Positions 53,259-63,635 of a stretch of DNA of 64,000 bases are shown here, piece after piece. This DNA comes from Thermococcus sp. 18S1. Lineage in GTDB: Archaea; Methanobacteriota_B; Thermococci; Thermococcales; Thermococcaceae. Numbering within the stretch: position 1 is the stretch's first letter; every line of letters starts with the position of its first letter. The translations under genes and the position numbers were made by a program. The stretch spans positions 1,860,001 to 1,924,000 of the forward strand of contig NZ_SNUU01000001.1 of the NCBI RefSeq assembly GCF_012027645.1. The letters are read 5' to 3'. The notes beneath the pieces were generated by a model. The model did no database searches, was not told the origin of the DNA, and saw only the letters and a list, made by a program, of their open reading frames with translations.

Positions 53259-54146
53259 TCACTTGAGTATCTCTTCCCTGACCCTCCCAGCTATCTCCCT
53301 CATCGCATCGGCCGCCTTCGAGTCGGGAAAGGCCTCGACGAAGGGCTTGAGCATGCTCATGCTCCTCGGAATGGCCCTGTCGTAGGGTATCTCGCCGAGT
53401 ATCGGAATTCCCTCGGCTTCAGCCCACTCCCTTAGAGCAGTGAAGCCAGGGTTAAAGTCGGCCTTATTGATGATGAGGTAAGCCGGCTGCCTGAAGTGCT
53501 GGACGACCTTGTATGCCCTCCGCACGTCGCTGAGGGAAGCAGGGGTAGGCTCCGCCACGAGTATCGTCAGATCAGCCCCACCTATGCTCGCTATAACCTG
53601 ACAGCCGATTCCTGCGGCGCTGTCAACCACCATGTGCTCGATGCCGAGCTCCCCCATGAGCTTCTTCGCCCACTCCTTCTCCTCGGTAACGAGCTTTCCG
53701 CTGTTGGGCCTGCCGACGTCGAGCTGGGCCGAAATCAGCGGAAAGCCGTAGCGGGTGGTCGTCTTCCTGACGACTCCAGAGCGAACCTCGTCAAGGCTTA
53801 TCGTCCCCGGAACCGGACAAACGAGGCCACAGACGTTGCAGCCCTCACAGGTCAGCTCGCTGACAACGTAGTCGCCGTCTATGACCTTGATACAGTCGTA
53901 GGGGCAGCGCTCCTGGCAGATGCCGCACCTTATGCAGCTCTCCGTGTTTATCCTCGCCACCTTCGCCCCTATCAGCTCCCTCTCCTCCTCCCAGCGCTCC
54001 ACGCCGAGGAGCAGGTCGAGGTTCGGCGCGTCCGCATCGGCATCAACGGCAACGAACCGGTACTCGTCCTTCAGCAGGTAGAGGAGCGAGGCTGTGACGG
54101 TACTCTTTCCAACGCCTCCCTTGCCGCTCGCTATGACCAGCTGCAT
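53259..54146 (-). CDS. Mrp/MinD-type P-loop ATPase with inserted ferredoxin domain, second
   Basis: 295 residues. The deviant Walker A is GKGGVGKST near residue 9. A two-cluster ferredoxin insert lies at about 60-105, with CIRCGICQERCPYDC and CEGCNVCGLVCP. The later VDSAAGIGC and LIINKADFN are MinD-type switch motifs. Such ATPases accompany orange protein (ORP) and NifX-like genes in anaerobes, where a role in metal-sulfur cofactor handling or septum placement has been proposed. Its ATG overlaps the stop of the paralogue before it. Confidence 0.9.
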   Translation of the reverse strand: MQLVIASGKGGVGKSTVTASLLYLLKDEYRFVAVDADADAPNLDLLLGVERWEEERELIGAKVARINTESCIRCGICQERCPYDCIKVIDGDYVVSELTCEGCNVCGLVCPVPGTISLDEVRSGVVRKTTTRYGFPLISAQLDVGRPNSGKLVTEEKEWAKKLMGELGIEHMVVDSAAGIGCQVIASIGGADLTILVAEPTPASLSDVRRAYKVVQHFRQPAYLIINKADFNPGFTALREWAEAEGIPILGEIPYDRAIPRSMSMLKPFVEAFPDSKAADAMREIAGRVREEILK

Positions 54147-55015
54147 CACTCACCACCTCCGAGGAACTCAACGACCCTGGAAGCAATCTCCCTGAAGAGC
54201 CCCGCCTCGGGATAATCCGTCAGGACTATGGGCTTCCCCTCAACGTAGCTCCTTATGATGTTCTCGCTGTACGGAATCTCCGCGATTACCTCCGCACCGT
54301 ACTTCTCGGCAATCTCGCGCACCTTAGCCACTTCGCCGAGGTCCGAGCGGTTCACAACGACCATCGCGGGAACCTCCATCAGCTTCGCCAGCCTGAGAAT
54401 CAACTCGCCGTCGTGAATTCCGAGGGGAGTTGGCTCGATGACGGCTATGATGAGCCTCGAGTCCTCAAGGGCCTTCGAGACGGTGTTGCTCGTTCCCGCG
54501 GCGGTATCAACCATCAAAAGCTCCTTCTCAAGCCCCTGGGCACGCTTCTTGGCCCTGGAAACTATCGGCATCGCCCTCTCCTCACCCTCAAGGAGCCTTC
54601 CCGTGACGAGCGGGAAGCCGTAGGGGGTCTCAGTGAGGTAAGTGTGCCCCATCAGCTTCTTGCCCGGCAGAATAGCCCCCGGGACAGGACAGACTATCTC
54701 ACAGGCGGCGCAACCGGAGCAGAGGTTCGGCATCAGGAAGGGCGTCCCATCGCGCATGGTTATTATCGCGTGCTCCTCACAGACCTCGGCGCACTTCCTG
54801 CAGCGGGTGCACTTCCCATAGTCGAAGCGCGGCATGAACAGTTCAACCGGCTCTTCGTTGGCCAGCTCCACGCCCAGCAGAAGGTGGTCGTTGGGAGCCT
54901 CAACATCAAGGTCAGCTAAGACGAGATCGTAGTGCTCCCTGAGTGCTATCGCCAGATTGATCGCAACCGTTGACTTTCCAGTGCCACCTTTTCCACCGCT
55001 CACCGCTATCTGCAA
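54146..55015 (-). CDS. Mrp/MinD-type P-loop ATPase with inserted ferredoxin domain, first
   Basis: 289 residues, TTG start behind GGAGGTGAGAGC. P-loop GGKGGTGKST near residue 7; ferredoxin insert at about 65-115 with CTRCRKCAEVC and CSGCAACEIVCP; VDTAAGTSN and VVVNRSDLG follow. It is a paralogue of the next gene, and the pair probably forms a heterodimer. It diverges from a NifX-like gene across a promoter with a TTAGG-N4-CCTAA box and a 14-base near-palindrome. Confidence 0.9.
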   Translation of the reverse strand: MQIAVSGGKGGTGKSTVAINLAIALREHYDLVLADLDVEAPNDHLLLGVELANEEPVELFMPRFDYGKCTRCRKCAEVCEEHAIITMRDGTPFLMPNLCSGCAACEIVCPVPGAILPGKKLMGHTYLTETPYGFPLVTGRLLEGEERAMPIVSRAKKRAQGLEKELLMVDTAAGTSNTVSKALEDSRLIIAVIEPTPLGIHDGELILRLAKLMEVPAMVVVNRSDLGEVAKVREIAEKYGAEVIAEIPYSENIIRSYVEGKPIVLTDYPEAGLFREIASRVVEFLGGGE

Positions 55016-55031: not shown

Positions 55032-55073
55032 TTAGGCTAACCTAAAAGCTTTTAAGCTTTGTGCATACGCTCA
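55032..55073. promoter_or_regulatory. Divergent Mrp/NifX promoter with two operator motifs
   Basis: TTAGG-CTAA-CCTAA (55032-55045), TATA sequences for both directions (about 55047-55058), and TGTGCATACGCTCA (55060-55073). The first box resembles the core of bacterial DtxR/IdeR iron boxes. Seen from the minus strand the order is 14-mer, TATA, box, start; from the plus strand it is box, TATA, 14-mer, start. Confidence 0.7.
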
Positions 55074-55087
55074 AAACGGTGATGCTC

Positions 55088-55495
55088 ATGAGGTGCCTGA
55101 AGGTCGCGTTTGGAATGGAAAACGATGAGACGCTCATAGATGCCCACTACGGGGACTCGGAGTTCTTCGCGACATACGAGGTCTGCGAGGACAAGAGTGT
55201 TAAGCTGCTCGAAAAGAGGCACAACAAGGCCAAGGACTTCGAGGAAGAGGACGACGGCCATGGCGACCCCAGGAAGTTCAAGGCCGTCGTGAGCCAGCTC
55301 CTCGACGTTGACGTCCTAGCAGCATTCAGAATGGGTCCAAACTTCCTGAGGATCCGCGACAAGACCAACAAGGTGGCATTCTTCACGAGGACGAGGGACT
55401 TAAACCTCGCCCTGCAGAGGTTTATCGAGAACTTCGACGACCTCTGGGAACAGGTACAGGCGAAGAAGGCCGAAAAGCCCCCGATAGAGGAGTAA
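55088..55495 (+). CDS. NifX-like (dinitrogenase Fe-Mo cofactor family) protein, first
   Basis: 135 residues with the NifX/NifB-C ribonuclease-H-like fold: CLKVAFGMENDETLIDAHYGDSEFFATYEV is the typical opening, with the conserved D-x-H-x-G-x-S pattern; residues around LLDVDVLAAFRMGPNFLRI match the second half. It may bind a metal-sulfur cofactor. ATG 55088 follows GGTGATG. Divergent from the two ferredoxin-ATPase genes, the arrangement seen around ORP genes. Confidence 0.82.
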   Translation: MRCLKVAFGMENDETLIDAHYGDSEFFATYEVCEDKSVKLLEKRHNKAKDFEEEDDGHGDPRKFKAVVSQLLDVDVLAAFRMGPNFLRIRDKTNKVAFFTRTRDLNLALQRFIENFDDLWEQVQAKKAEKPPIEE

Positions 55496-55829
55496 ACAAG
55501 AGGTCCGGGATAGCTCTAAGGTTTCCCGTTTCACAGCCCATACAGGGTTTTGGCATTCCTAGATTTCGAATACCTGCGAGGGATGAGCTGCTCACAATGG
55601 GCTGCTACTTCGCAGTCTCCTGTATATTCGGTCTAAAGCTTTCTTTCAGTGCCAGGCCTCCCCTCGCCATTGAACGTTTCGGACTATCCACCCACATCAT
55701 AATTCCAGCGTATAACCCAGATGAAAAGAAGGCGTTGCCAATGAGAGCAATTTCACTGTTTCTGGGACCAATTATCTCAAGAACGCTGCATATTCTGCGC
55801 CGCTTGTGTACTGCCACAGTACCGCCTTG
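55496..55829. other. Gap with no clear gene
   Basis: 334 bases between two NifX-like genes. Frames of 70-78 residues exist on both strands but none has a ribosome site or recognisable similarity; the minus-strand one (55605-55817) has an internal hydrophobic stretch and might be a fragment of an old membrane-protein gene. A TATA-containing promoter for the next gene begins at its right end. Confidence 0.5.
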
Positions 55830-55869
55830 TTAGGGCAACCGAAAACTTTAAATGCTGTGCATATGCACA
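55830..55869 (+). promoter_or_regulatory. NifX-like promoter with box, TATA and perfect 14-base palindrome
   Basis: TTAGG-GCAA-CCGAA (55830-55843, one mismatch in the inverted repeat), TATA box CTTTAAAT (55846-55853), then the perfect palindrome TGTGCATATGCACA (55856-55869). Same order and nearly the same spacing as the plus-strand promoter at 55032-55073. Confidence 0.7.
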
Positions 55870-55899
55870 AAATAATAGAACGAAAGTGAGGTGGTTGAG

Positions 55900-56475
55900 A
55901 TGAGAATCGCAGTACCAACCAACGGAGGGGGGCTTGAAGACACAGTTGCTCCGGTCTTTGCCAGAGCCCCAGCGTTCCTCATAGTGGACGTTGACGAAAA
56001 CGGCAACGTCACCAGCAGCAGGGTCATCCAGAACGGTGCCGCCATGGCGGGAGGCGGAGCCGGGCCAATGGCCATCCAGACCCTCATCAACGAGGGCGTC
56101 GAAGCGGTGATAGCACCGCAGGTCGGCCCCAATGCTATGGGGGCTGCACAGGCCGCGGGGATAAGGGTCTACCAGGTCGTACCTGGAACCCCAGTCGAGG
56201 AGGCCATAAAGGCCGTCGTCAACGGAAGCGTTGGCCAGTTCACGGCCCCAGTCCCGCCTGCCCCAGCGACGCCGACATACCCGCCATATCCCGCTTACGG
56301 CTACGGCTTTGGTCCCGGCAGAGGCCAGGGCCGCGGTGGCGGCTGGGGAAGAGGCAGAGGCTTCGGTCGTGGATGGGGAAGAGGAGGGAGGGGCCAGGGA
56401 TCCAGACTTGGCTACTGCCCCTGGACCGGCCAGCCCAGCAGGCGAGCCCTTCGCTGGCTCTACGGTCGGTGGTGA
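55900..56475 (+). CDS. NifX-like protein with Pro- and Gly/Arg-rich tail, second
   Basis: 191 residues. Residues 1-115 form the NifX-like domain (MRIAVPTNGGGLEDTVAPVFARAPAF, then GPNAMGAAQAAGIRVY). A proline-rich linker (about 118-135) leads to a Gly/Arg-rich stretch (RGQGRGGGWGRGRG) and a final CPWTGQPSRRALRWLY. Such RG-rich tails occur in proteins next to DUF5320-type genes and could bind nucleic acid or a partner. ATG after GAGGTGGTTGAG; T-run terminator TCTTTTTTATT after the stop. Confidence 0.85.
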   Translation: MRIAVPTNGGGLEDTVAPVFARAPAFLIVDVDENGNVTSSRVIQNGAAMAGGGAGPMAIQTLINEGVEAVIAPQVGPNAMGAAQAAGIRVYQVVPGTPVEEAIKAVVNGSVGQFTAPVPPAPATPTYPPYPAYGYGFGPGRGQGRGGGWGRGRGFGRGWGRGGRGQGSRLGYCPWTGQPSRRALRWLYGRW

Positions 56476-56539
56476 ACTATCTCTTTTTTATTATTTGCAT
56501 TATGGGCATGAACGCGATAACGTATCGGGGGAACGGAGA

Positions 56540-56761
56540 ATGCCGAGAGGAATGGGAAGGGGATACAGCAGATTAGGACACGGATTCTATCCATTCAACG
56601 GCGCGTATGGTCTAATCGACCTACTCCTTCTTACAGGAATTCTGTATTTACTGTTCAAGCTCTTTGTTGCTGCGTTTCCCTACGCTCTGGGCCTGGGGGT
56701 GCTCCTAATCCTCCGGTCGTTCCTGAGGCCCCGTTTCGGGGGATGGGGGAGAGTATTTTGA
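56540..56761 (+). CDS. Small membrane protein with MPRGMGRG start
   Basis: 73 residues. MPRGMGRGYSRLGHG at the N-terminus is like the opening of DUF5320/DUF134-linked proteins of such clusters; two hydrophobic segments follow (about 25-42 and 45-60), then an RPRFGGWGR tail. Probably a small membrane protein belonging to the NifX cluster. ATG at 56540 with GGGGGAACGGAGA before it. Function unknown. Confidence 0.7.
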   Translation: MPRGMGRGYSRLGHGFYPFNGAYGLIDLLLLTGILYLLFKLFVAAFPYALGLGVLLILRSFLRPRFGGWGRVF

Positions 56762-56798
56762 GCGTATGCAAACTTTTTTAAATTCGGTTTTCCTAATT
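56759..56798 (+). promoter_or_regulatory. Third NifX-like promoter, mirrored operator order
   Basis: TGAGCGTATGCAAA (56759-56772; 13 of 14 bases equal the reverse complement of the motif at 55060-55073), TATA sequence TTTTTTAAATT (56775-56785), then AATTCGG-TTTT-CCTAATT (56781-56798, one mismatch). Order is 14-mer, TATA, box, start, the same as on the minus strand at 55073-55032. Confidence 0.65.
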
Positions 56799-56816: not shown

Positions 56817-57248
56817 ATGAGGATCATAGTCTCAACCGTAAACGGAGGACTCGAAGACCGGGTAAACCCGGCATTCGGAAGAACTCCCACTTTCACAATA
56901 GTTGACGTCGAGAACGGAGAAATAACCAACGCCCAGGTCGTTCAGAACCCGGGCTACAGCCAGCCAAGAGGAGCCGGAGTTACCGCGTCACAGTTCTGCA
57001 TAGACCAGGAGGCAGACGTGGTAATAGCAGGTCATTTTGGACCCAACTCCTCCGGGGTACTTCAGGCCGCAGGCATAAGGATAGTCTCGGCCCCCGCCAC
57101 TATGACCGTCAGAGAGGCGGTTGAGGCCTTCCTGCGGGGTGAGCTCACCCAGGCCGTTCTCAATCCAGAGGGCGGAGGAGCCGGCAGAGGAATGGGAAGA
57201 GGAGGAAGGGGCCAGGGAATGAGTAGCGGCCGCAGTGGCGGCTGGTGA
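56817..57248 (+). CDS. NifX-like protein with Gly/Arg-rich tail, third
   Basis: 143 residues. The NifX-like domain fills 1-110 (IVSTVNGGLEDRVNPAFGRTPTF, later GHFGPNSSGVLQAAGIRI) and the last 30 residues are Gly/Arg/Ser-rich (GRGMGRGGRGQGM). It has one cysteine, in ASQFCIDQEADV. ATG after GGAGGTGG. It is the closest in design to the second NifX-like protein, so the two may form a mixed complex. Confidence 0.85.
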   Translation: MRIIVSTVNGGLEDRVNPAFGRTPTFTIVDVENGEITNAQVVQNPGYSQPRGAGVTASQFCIDQEADVVIAGHFGPNSSGVLQAAGIRIVSAPATMTVREAVEAFLRGELTQAVLNPEGGGAGRGMGRGGRGQGMSSGRSGGW

Positions 57249-61635: not shown

Positions 61636-61998
61636 ATGGCCATGCCGAGGGGAATGGGAGGCGGTCGAGGCCGCGGAAGGGGAAGAAGAAGGAAAATGAG
61701 AATGATAGGCTTCGTCCCGGAGGTTAGACATTTTTATCCTGCATTGCCCCCCATGGGCCAGCCCAAACCGCCGATTTTCATGACATACGAGGAATTCGAG
61801 GCCCTTAGGCTGGTGGATCACGAGGGACTGACCCAGGAGGAGGCCGGAAAAAGAATGGGGGTTTCTAGGGGCACGGTGTGGAGGGCACTGAGCTCGGCCA
61901 GAAAAAAAGTTGCTCAGATGCTGGTTGAGGGAAGGGAACTCATAATTTTACCCCAAGGAAACGAGATTCCAAAAACTCCCAGTGAGGAAGAGCTATAA
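61636..61998 (+). CDS. DUF134 helix-turn-helix protein
   Basis: 120 residues. A Gly/Arg-rich N-terminus (MPRGMGGGRGRGRG), then the DUF134 block VPEVRHFYPA and a sigma-region-4-like helix-turn-helix: MTYEEFEALRLVDHEGLTQEEAGKRMGVSRGTVWRALSSARKK. DUF134 genes often accompany NifX-like, DUF5320 and Mrp genes, so this is a candidate regulator of the cluster 5 kb to the left. TATA box CTATAAA (61607-61613) gives a leaderless start at the ATG 61636. Confidence 0.85.
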   Translation: MAMPRGMGGGRGRGRGRRRKMRMIGFVPEVRHFYPALPPMGQPKPPIFMTYEEFEALRLVDHEGLTQEEAGKRMGVSRGTVWRALSSARKKVAQMLVEGRELIILPQGNEIPKTPSEEEL

Positions 61999-62059: not shown

Positions 62060-62087
62060 GCCGATTTGAAATTTTAGGTTGCCCTAA
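62060..62087 (-). promoter_or_regulatory. TTAGG-N4-CCTAA box and degenerate copy of the NifX promoter
   Basis: The box is at 62074-62087. On the minus strand the 24 bases beginning TTAGGGCAACC agree with the plus-strand promoter at 55830-55853 except at three positions, but the TATA part is weakened and no 14-mer palindrome follows. Confidence 0.5.
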
Positions 62088-62834
62088 TTCATGGTCCCAT
62101 TTATCTCTCAAAGTTTTCAGTGAATTTTTACTATAATAAAAAGTTAGAATATGAAGTTTGAATTTTTCATTGAAATTACTAAAATAAAAAGCCTAAAAAA
62201 TCATAAAGACTAATTACCAATAAATGACACTAAAGAAAGATTTTAAAAATAGATTTAATAGTAGTAAAAAATCCAAAAAATTTACGATGTCTATTCGGAA
62301 AAATTGGCAAAATGAATATATCTGGGCATGAGAAGTGCAGTGAACCCATTAAAAACGAATGGAAAATCTATAATAAGCGCCATGATGGGAAGTCCCGCTG
62401 CAGCCAGAACACGAAAACCTGCAAGGATGGCTATTTTCTCGTCAGCTTCAAGCGTTATTGCTGTTATTGAACAAGCTCGGAGCGACAGTCTGAGAGTAGC
62501 CATCATTCTCCACTAGGGCCCCAGAATCTCTTGCTGTCATGTCATTGCAGCTGTATTTTCTCTTGGCCTCTCCTAGTTTAAGGTAATTATCTACTTTATT
62601 AGAGGGCGGGTACTTCTTTCTTTAAGGCTCTTAACGTCCGCAGCGGATCATCTAACGGATCTTTGTTTGAGCAGGTACCGAAGTGTGAGATTAGAGCAAA
62701 CGCAACCCTATCAGATACAAGCGAGCGAGTTGAATATCGCAAGGTCCAGCAGAAAACACAACTATTATACAGCGAGGCATCGCCTGTAAATCGAAGCTCG
62801 CACGCACTTTATAATGTATGTTAATGTACCCTAA

Positions 62835-62864
62835 TTTTGGATATAATGTGCCTTATATCCAAAA
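62835..62864. repeat. Perfect inverted repeat with 12-base arms
   Basis: Arms TTTTGGATATAA (62835-62846) and TTATATCCAAAA (62853-62864) around a 6-base spacer. Each arm contains a TATA-like sequence. No gene starts nearby. Confidence 0.8.
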
Positions 62865-63635
62865 CTTGTGGACATATAAGAACATTAAGAAGGGCAGAAA
62901 CAGAGGGGCCGAGGGACAAAACTGCAGAGGGGCATCATTACATACCCCAAGTTTTATGAGTTGTAGGTTCTGCTACCCATCACCAGCCCGTCCGTAGATT
63001 CCACGGCAAATTAAGTGATCCACCTATGAGATGTCGTGTGAGCGTCAGGATCATCAACTTGTACCGACTCATCGGGGAGGTTTCACTGGCATAACTACAA
63101 ATGCAACTACCAGCGCATGGGGCATGATTGAACAACACAAACTAAACGGCACAATAGCAGCAACTAATTACCCCAGCCAACTGATGGTGGGGGCACAACT
63201 ATGGACACCTTCTCCGAATTGAGGATTTTATCGGTAAGGTCAGCTTCTAAAGACCAAAAATTGGTTACAATTAAAGGTAGTGTCAATCCAGCCGTGAGGG
63301 CTACTGCCACTGTCTCCGAGTCCACGGGCAGGGACAAACTCAACCGTCGGTATATGGCAGCCACACATTTATCCTACACAAAATAATTGAATAAATTACA
63401 ATAGAAAAGAGTCAAAAATCTAAATTTTTTAACATTTTGATAAGTAATTTTGAACCAAATAATCAACGAATTAACTACACAATACACCATAAATGCAAAT
63501 AGCAATCTAAATTAAGAACACAAAAATTACTATAGCTAAACGTGATAATTCGCCCAAAAATTTGAGAGACAAATTCGATGATAATGACAGAGCAACAAAA
63601 AAGATGCAGAGAACAAAAAGCAAAAAATTAAAGCC

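Follow-up and report, generated by a model that had tools for sequence, protein, structure and literature searches.

The suf promoter of E. coli is under the dual control of Fur and IscR. For the archaea, Leyn and Rodionov are said to have predicted, in 2015, metal regulons with palindromic DtxR sites, Thermococcus included. A structural study has put forward TTAGGNNNNCCTAA as a 14-bp consensus for IdeR/DtxR sites (PMC8464063). In Pyrococcus furiosus, the site of the metal-responsive regulator CopR is a palindrome, TTNNCAWWWTGNNAA, located directly upstream of the BRE (PMC7830388). In Desulfovibrio, studies of the orange protein (ORP) and MrpORP indicate that a NifX-type (Di-Nase) domain and an Mrp/NBP35 ATPase cooperate in Fe–S delivery (PMC6345978).

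Here we analyze a 64-kb stretch of DNA (C1:1860001–1924000 of a 1.99-Mb Thermococcaceae genome), referred to below as the window, in which four transcription units—the MinD1-MinD2 operon, NifXa, NifXb and NifXc—start from three intergenic regions. Each region contains a TTAGG-N4-CCTAA box and a 14-mer of the TGTGCATATGCACA type, which flank a TATA-like element on opposite sides. The module is a variant of the known dual-regulator iron/Fe–S promoter. As in suf, Fe–S-related genes would sense iron status and a second signal via two adjacent sites, although here the promoter is of the archaeal TBP/TFB kind, the regulator DtxR-type rather than Fur, and the genes NifX/Mrp rather than suf. The box, with its inverted TTAGG/CCTAA pentamers four bases apart, is identical to the 14-bp IdeR/DtxR consensus, and both the DtxR-family gene and feoAB of this organism carry it. 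The DtxR part of the module is therefore a known site type, and the initial annotation, which knew of no description of the repeated grammar, needs correcting as far as the box is concerned; what appears to be new is the 14-mer operator. Unlike the IdeR/DtxR operator, the predicted site here is archaeal, consists of a single box, and is paired with an operator of unrelated sequence on the other side of the TATA box. The palindromic DtxR sites resemble those of the predicted archaeal metal regulons ascribed to Leyn and Rodionov. The CopR site is likewise a palindrome next to the BRE for a metal-responsive regulator, although its sequence (TTNNCAWWWTGNNAA) differs from the motif found here (TGTGCATATGCACA). 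Finally, NifX-type and Mrp-type partners occur in both Desulfovibrio and this organism, and NifXc matches ORP, but the partners fused in MrpORP are here separate genes of a putative archaeal DtxR/14-mer regulon. The NifX and Mrp/MinD products are members of families whose role is to carry Fe–S clusters or deliver them.

Paired sites in the window

In agreement with the initial annotation, which reported a composite module in three intergenic regions, both motifs were found at the coordinates listed in Table 1, flanking TATA-like elements. A third box had been placed at 56781–56798; it is present, with best coordinates (56783–56796) that fall inside this span. Start-to-start offsets between box and 14-mer are 28, 26 and 24 bases in regions A, B and C, in line with the proposed ∼22–28 bases. 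The TATA-like element of region A may work in both directions, and the right half of box B overlaps a BRE-like CCGAAAA. Between NifXb and NifXc lies a short Arg/Gly-rich membrane ORF (56541–56761; MPRGMGRG...), and similar MPRG-type starts are also seen in DUF134 and, in locus L073, in a tiny ORF behind a 14-mer.

Table 1. Sites, promoter elements and genes of the NifX/MinD locus (positions within the window)
Feature	Position	Strand	Basis or remark
MinD2, second MinD/Mrp ATPase with ferredoxin domain, in MinD1 operon	53259..54149	-	
MinD1, MinD/Mrp-type P-loop ATPase with inserted 4Fe-4S ferredoxin domain	54146..55015	-	Pfam CbiA, NUBPL-type ParA, Fer4
DtxR/IdeR-type box A, TTAGGCTAACCTAA	55032..55045	.	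exact; common to divergent MinD1 and NifXa promoters
TATA-like element of region A, AGCTTTTAAGCTT, near-symmetric, between both operators	55046..55059	.	sequence; inferred from spacing
14-mer operator of region A, TGTGCATACGCTCA (minus strand TGAGCGTATGCACA)	55060..55073	-	2 mismatches
NifXa, NifX/ORP-like (Nitro_FeMo-Co) protein	55082..55495	+	start ATG 55082 or 55088
DtxR/IdeR-type box B, TTAGGGCAACCGAA, upstream of NifXb	55830..55843	+	1 mismatch
NifXb TATA element, CTTTAAAT	55846..55853	+	
NifXb 14-mer operator, TGTGCATATGCACA, perfect palindrome, downstream of TATA box	55856..55869	.	exact
NifXb, NifX/ORP-like protein with Gly/Arg-rich tail	55900..56475	+	
NifXc 14-mer operator, TGAGCGTATGCAAA, upstream of TATA box	56759..56772	+	3 mismatches
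NifXc TATA element, CTTTTTTAAA	56773..56782	+	
DtxR/IdeR-type box C, TTCGGTTTTCCTAA, between NifXc TATA box and start codon	56783..56796	+	1 mismatch
NifXc, NifX/ORP-like protein	56817..57248	+	matches ORP domain of MrpORP and solved ORP structure
DUF134 (PF02001) helix-turn-helix protein, candidate 14-mer reader	61642..61998	+	
Further DtxR-type box, TTAGGTTGCCCTAA, downstream of DUF134	62074..62087	.	exact; kept in at least 13/30 orthologous loci

Neither motif is rare when considered singly. At two mismatches, the box was found 22 times in the window, compared to 23 expected from shuffles; for the 14-mer at three mismatches, the analogous numbers are 15 and 12.6. Boxes with one mismatch showed no genome-wide enrichment either (49 versus 49 for the reversed control). 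We then defined a pair as a box (≤1 mismatch) and a 14-mer (≤3 mismatches) within 40 bp. Such pairs occur only at these three places in the window, and at least one was seen in 1/60 first-order Markov simulations of it. The case for the module rests on pairing and conservation.

Conservation across the Thermococcaceae

To keep the choice independent of the motifs, we used protein search to gather the orthologous promoters of up to 94 Thermococcaceae genomes and then read them from the genomic DNA. For MinD1, the box (≤1 mismatch) was present in 81/83 promoters and the 14-mer (≤3 mismatches) in 77/83, compared to 0.4 and 0.5% of shuffles, respectively. At NifXb, 48 of the 49 promoters contain the exact 14-mer, a motif to which none of 980 shuffles came within two mismatches, and 42 contain the box (≤1 mismatch). 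NifXc promoters showed the box in 66/70 cases and the 14-mer in 58/70, at the same respective thresholds. Spacing is similarly constrained. The motif offset is +28 (70) or +27 (8) in 78/83 MinD1 promoters; −26 (27), −29 (12) or −27 (7) in 46/49 NifXb promoters; and +24 (44) or +25 (11) in 55/70 NifXc promoters. Column information ranges from 1.58 to 1.99 bits in the 14-mer, versus 0.11 to 0.22 in the upstream flank. The initial annotation would have been refuted by motifs that lack conservation at orthologous promoters, or that random intergenic DNA contains just as often; instead, both motifs recur at fixed offsets and their pairing is rare.

The order of the sites depends on the gene. NifXb promoters read TTAGG-N4-CCGAAAA-n-TTTAAAT-nn-TGTGCATATGCACA, while those of MinD1 and NifXc have the opposite order, namely 14-mer, TATA, box. 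NifXa is divergent from MinD1 at 29 loci and from NifXb at 15, and in either arrangement the two genes share one module.

The exact 14-mer is found in 85/94 Thermococcaceae genomes, at one to three copies each, and its reversed control in none of them. It is absent from 21 genomes of sibling families. An exact-string scan for the composite across 84,980 genomes, from which close relatives of the window were possibly left out, returned three matches, all Thermococcus, and a pattern scan of viral contigs found none.

Two overlapping regulons

Besides the modules, exact boxes in this genome precede feoAB, genes for a ZIP transporter and a peroxiredoxin, and an Mrp/NBP35 gene, where the box directly follows the TATA box. 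The feoAB/feoA promoter (C1:1641372–1641434, locus L005) carries two DtxR-type boxes, which flank the TATA box, and lacks a 14-mer. It shares the two-slot layout of the NifX/Mrp modules, but with one box type used twice.

This genome encodes a single canonical DtxR-family protein (C1:981510), with Fe_dep_repress and Fe_dep_repr_C domains for DNA binding and metal binding. Its own promoter contains TTTGG-N4-CCTAA directly after the TATA box, a feature kept in 30/30 orthologues, none of which shows a 14-mer there. There are good grounds, then, to suppose that this protein binds the boxes. Its closest named families are MntR-type, and its metal is uncertain because the best NCBIfam match, MntR, falls below the cut-off. 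The protein has ACQFEH where B. subtilis MntR has VEGIEH, and a cysteine at this position is typical of iron-type DtxR/IdeR. It is probably an Fe2+ sensor. In T. kodakarensis, a role in the control of iron acquisition has been proposed for a DtxR homologue, TK0107 (PMC12827226).

One further box, located downstream of DUF134 (Table 1), is followed at orthologous loci by a conserved stretch (ATTTATCTCTCA...TTTTTACT). This stretch recurs in the window as an inverted repeat at 63542–63574 (whole region, 62090–63600), and the ∼1.4 kb enclosed contains neither convincing genes nor anything matched by Rfam.

The 14-mer has a different distribution. In this genome, the exact sequence occurs twice, once in the NifXb promoter and once before the gene for a CDF cation exporter (C1:701549). 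Exact or near-exact non-coding copies are limited to the three modules and the one before the CDF gene; the remaining matches with ≤2 mismatches lie mostly within ORFs. Family-wide, the 14-mer precedes NifXb, MinD1, a CDF exporter gene and a remote paralogue of NifX, ∼31–37% identical to NifXc. In single genomes, it is also seen before an Mrp/NBP35 gene or near FeoA. In promoters of the remote NifX gene, the 14-mer abuts the TATA box on its upstream side, and the box was found in none of 12 examples (best box, 3–5 mismatches). In CDF promoters the 14-mer follows the TATA box, with box-like sites ∼60–80 bp upstream of it in many cases but not all. The neighbors of the remote NifX gene with a 14-mer-only promoter are an FmdE-like gene plus one for an iron-type ABC binding protein (L041/L049), or a TehA/SLAC1-like transporter (L049, L053, L081, L132), all named by eye.

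Because box and 14-mer occur apart, we conclude that there are two regulons, which overlap at the NifX/Mrp promoters. The initial annotation had left the choice between two regulators and one with two sites; separate occurrence favors the former, and the sequences of the two sites are unrelated, which speaks against the latter. The regulon marked by the 14-mer is a small one of its own, made up of NifX-like genes, Mrp/MinD ATPases and a CDF exporter. This family-wide operator has apparently not been described before: a literature search for the string, whose scope did not include the main archaeal DtxR regulon paper, found nothing relevant. This regulon, which is compact, extends across the family and has a near-invariant operator, is of interest in model archaea as tractable as Thermococcus and Pyrococcus. 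It also links NifX/ORP and ferredoxin-domain Mrp/MinD proteins, both poorly understood, to iron control and a metal exporter, which points to iron or Fe–S cofactor handling.

Proposed two-sided control and a candidate second regulator

How might two sites act on one TATA box? We think it fairly probable that these are two-input promoters, in which a DtxR-family site and the site of a second regulator flank the TATA box and both repress sterically. One slot would be occupied by the single canonical DtxR-family metalloregulator, and the other by a different protein. With the TATA centre set at ∼−26, and transcription starts inferred, spacing would place one site over the BRE/upstream edge (∼−46 to −32) and the other in the TATA-to-start interval (∼−21 to −7). 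Metal-loaded DtxR-type protein and the second regulator would each shut the promoters, blocking TBP/TFB or RNA polymerase from either side. Full expression of the NifX-like and Mrp/MinD genes for Fe–S/cofactor carriers would then be seen only once both signals release, the first being iron status and the other a second metal or Fe–S signal. We infer the binding of the box by the DtxR-family protein, the repression by both proteins, and the steric block. One caveat here is that the 14-mer regulon includes a CDF exporter, which is at odds with simple repression by metal sufficiency; another is that the upstream site at NifXc and MinD1 could activate instead.

Activation is central to one alternative, which we consider rather unlikely. 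The 14-mer protein would activate MinD1 and NifXc from a site upstream of the BRE, much like CopR, and repress NifXb, while the DtxR-type protein represses everywhere. At MinD1, NifXc and the remote NifX gene, the 14-mer does adjoin BRE/TATA on the upstream side, the place taken in P. furiosus by the activator motif of CopR (PMC7830388). At NifXb and the CDF gene, however, it lies downstream of the TATA box, so the genes would respond oppositely to one another under this scheme, and the CopR motif itself (TTNNCAWWWTGNNAA) is unlike the 14-mer. The swapped site order between NifXb and NifXc/MinD1 fits two-sided repression better than position-specific activation, and it makes these promoters a clean natural test of two factors sharing one archaeal TATA box. 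That one regulator reads both box and 14-mer would explain why most of these promoters contain the two, but we deem it very improbable, given their unrelated sequences and their separate occurrence within the Thermococcaceae. Still harder to credit is that the motifs reflect chance plus the common ancestry of paralogous promoters. A promoter could have been passed on to the NifX paralogues through duplication, yet NifXb and NifXc differ in the order of their sites, the 14-mer is common to the non-homologous MinD1 and CDF genes, and motif columns are conserved where flanks are not. Conservation in orthologous promoters, together with the column information, refutes this explanation.

Within the two-input reading, which protein reads the 14-mer? 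DUF134 is the leading, if tentative, candidate, with somewhat less than an even chance of being, along with DtxR, one of the two components of the module. It is single-copy in 85/94 Thermococcaceae genomes, its helix-turn-helix resembles sigma region 4, and its gene lies 5 kb from NifXb in the window. In sibling families, DUF134 is arranged with NifX and MinD-type genes much as in an operon. Moreover, the DUF134/NifX promoters of three of these families contain, just after the TATA box, a palindrome (TATG(A/C)AT-N4-AT(T/G)CATA) with a half-site resembling TGTGCAT. On the other hand, this palindrome has four additional central bases compared to the 14-mer, the exact 14-mer is absent from sibling families in which DUF134 is present, and DUF134's own promoter in the Thermococcaceae lacks it. 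As own-promoter sites are common but not obligatory, this last point lowers the claim without excluding it. The fuller proposal, that DUF134 reads TGTGCATATGCACA and, with a DtxR-type iron sensor, double-locks the TATA box of NifX/Mrp genes, is a shade more doubtful still. If it were true, DUF134 proteins, which neighbor NifX genes in sibling archaeal families, would gain an operator and a regulon.

Nine genomes apparently lack DUF134, and these absences are uninformative. The best case, G067, was considered as a natural DUF134 knockout retaining 14-mers, but this reading was withdrawn because the expected DUF134 position is a run of N (a scaffold gap). CopR/TRASH regulators were rejected as 14-mer readers on account of their mismatched motif (TTNNCAWWWTGNNAA), since the 14-mer lacks the outer TT/AA around its CATATG centre. 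Next to the CDF gene there is a ribbon-helix-helix-like gene, which was also set aside, being adjacent in only four of the CDF loci checked. The sequences in this genome that nearly match the 14-mer, most of which are inside ORFs, showed no autoregulated transcription factor.

In the three sibling families (L151–L154, L164, L170), the TATG(A/C)AT-N4-AT(T/G)CATA palindrome is located directly before the start codon and is possibly the DUF134 operator. In one sibling-family genome (G109, locus L156), DUF134 is immediately preceded, on its own strand, by a gene of the DtxR family, which has a gene for an Mrp-type ATPase next to it.
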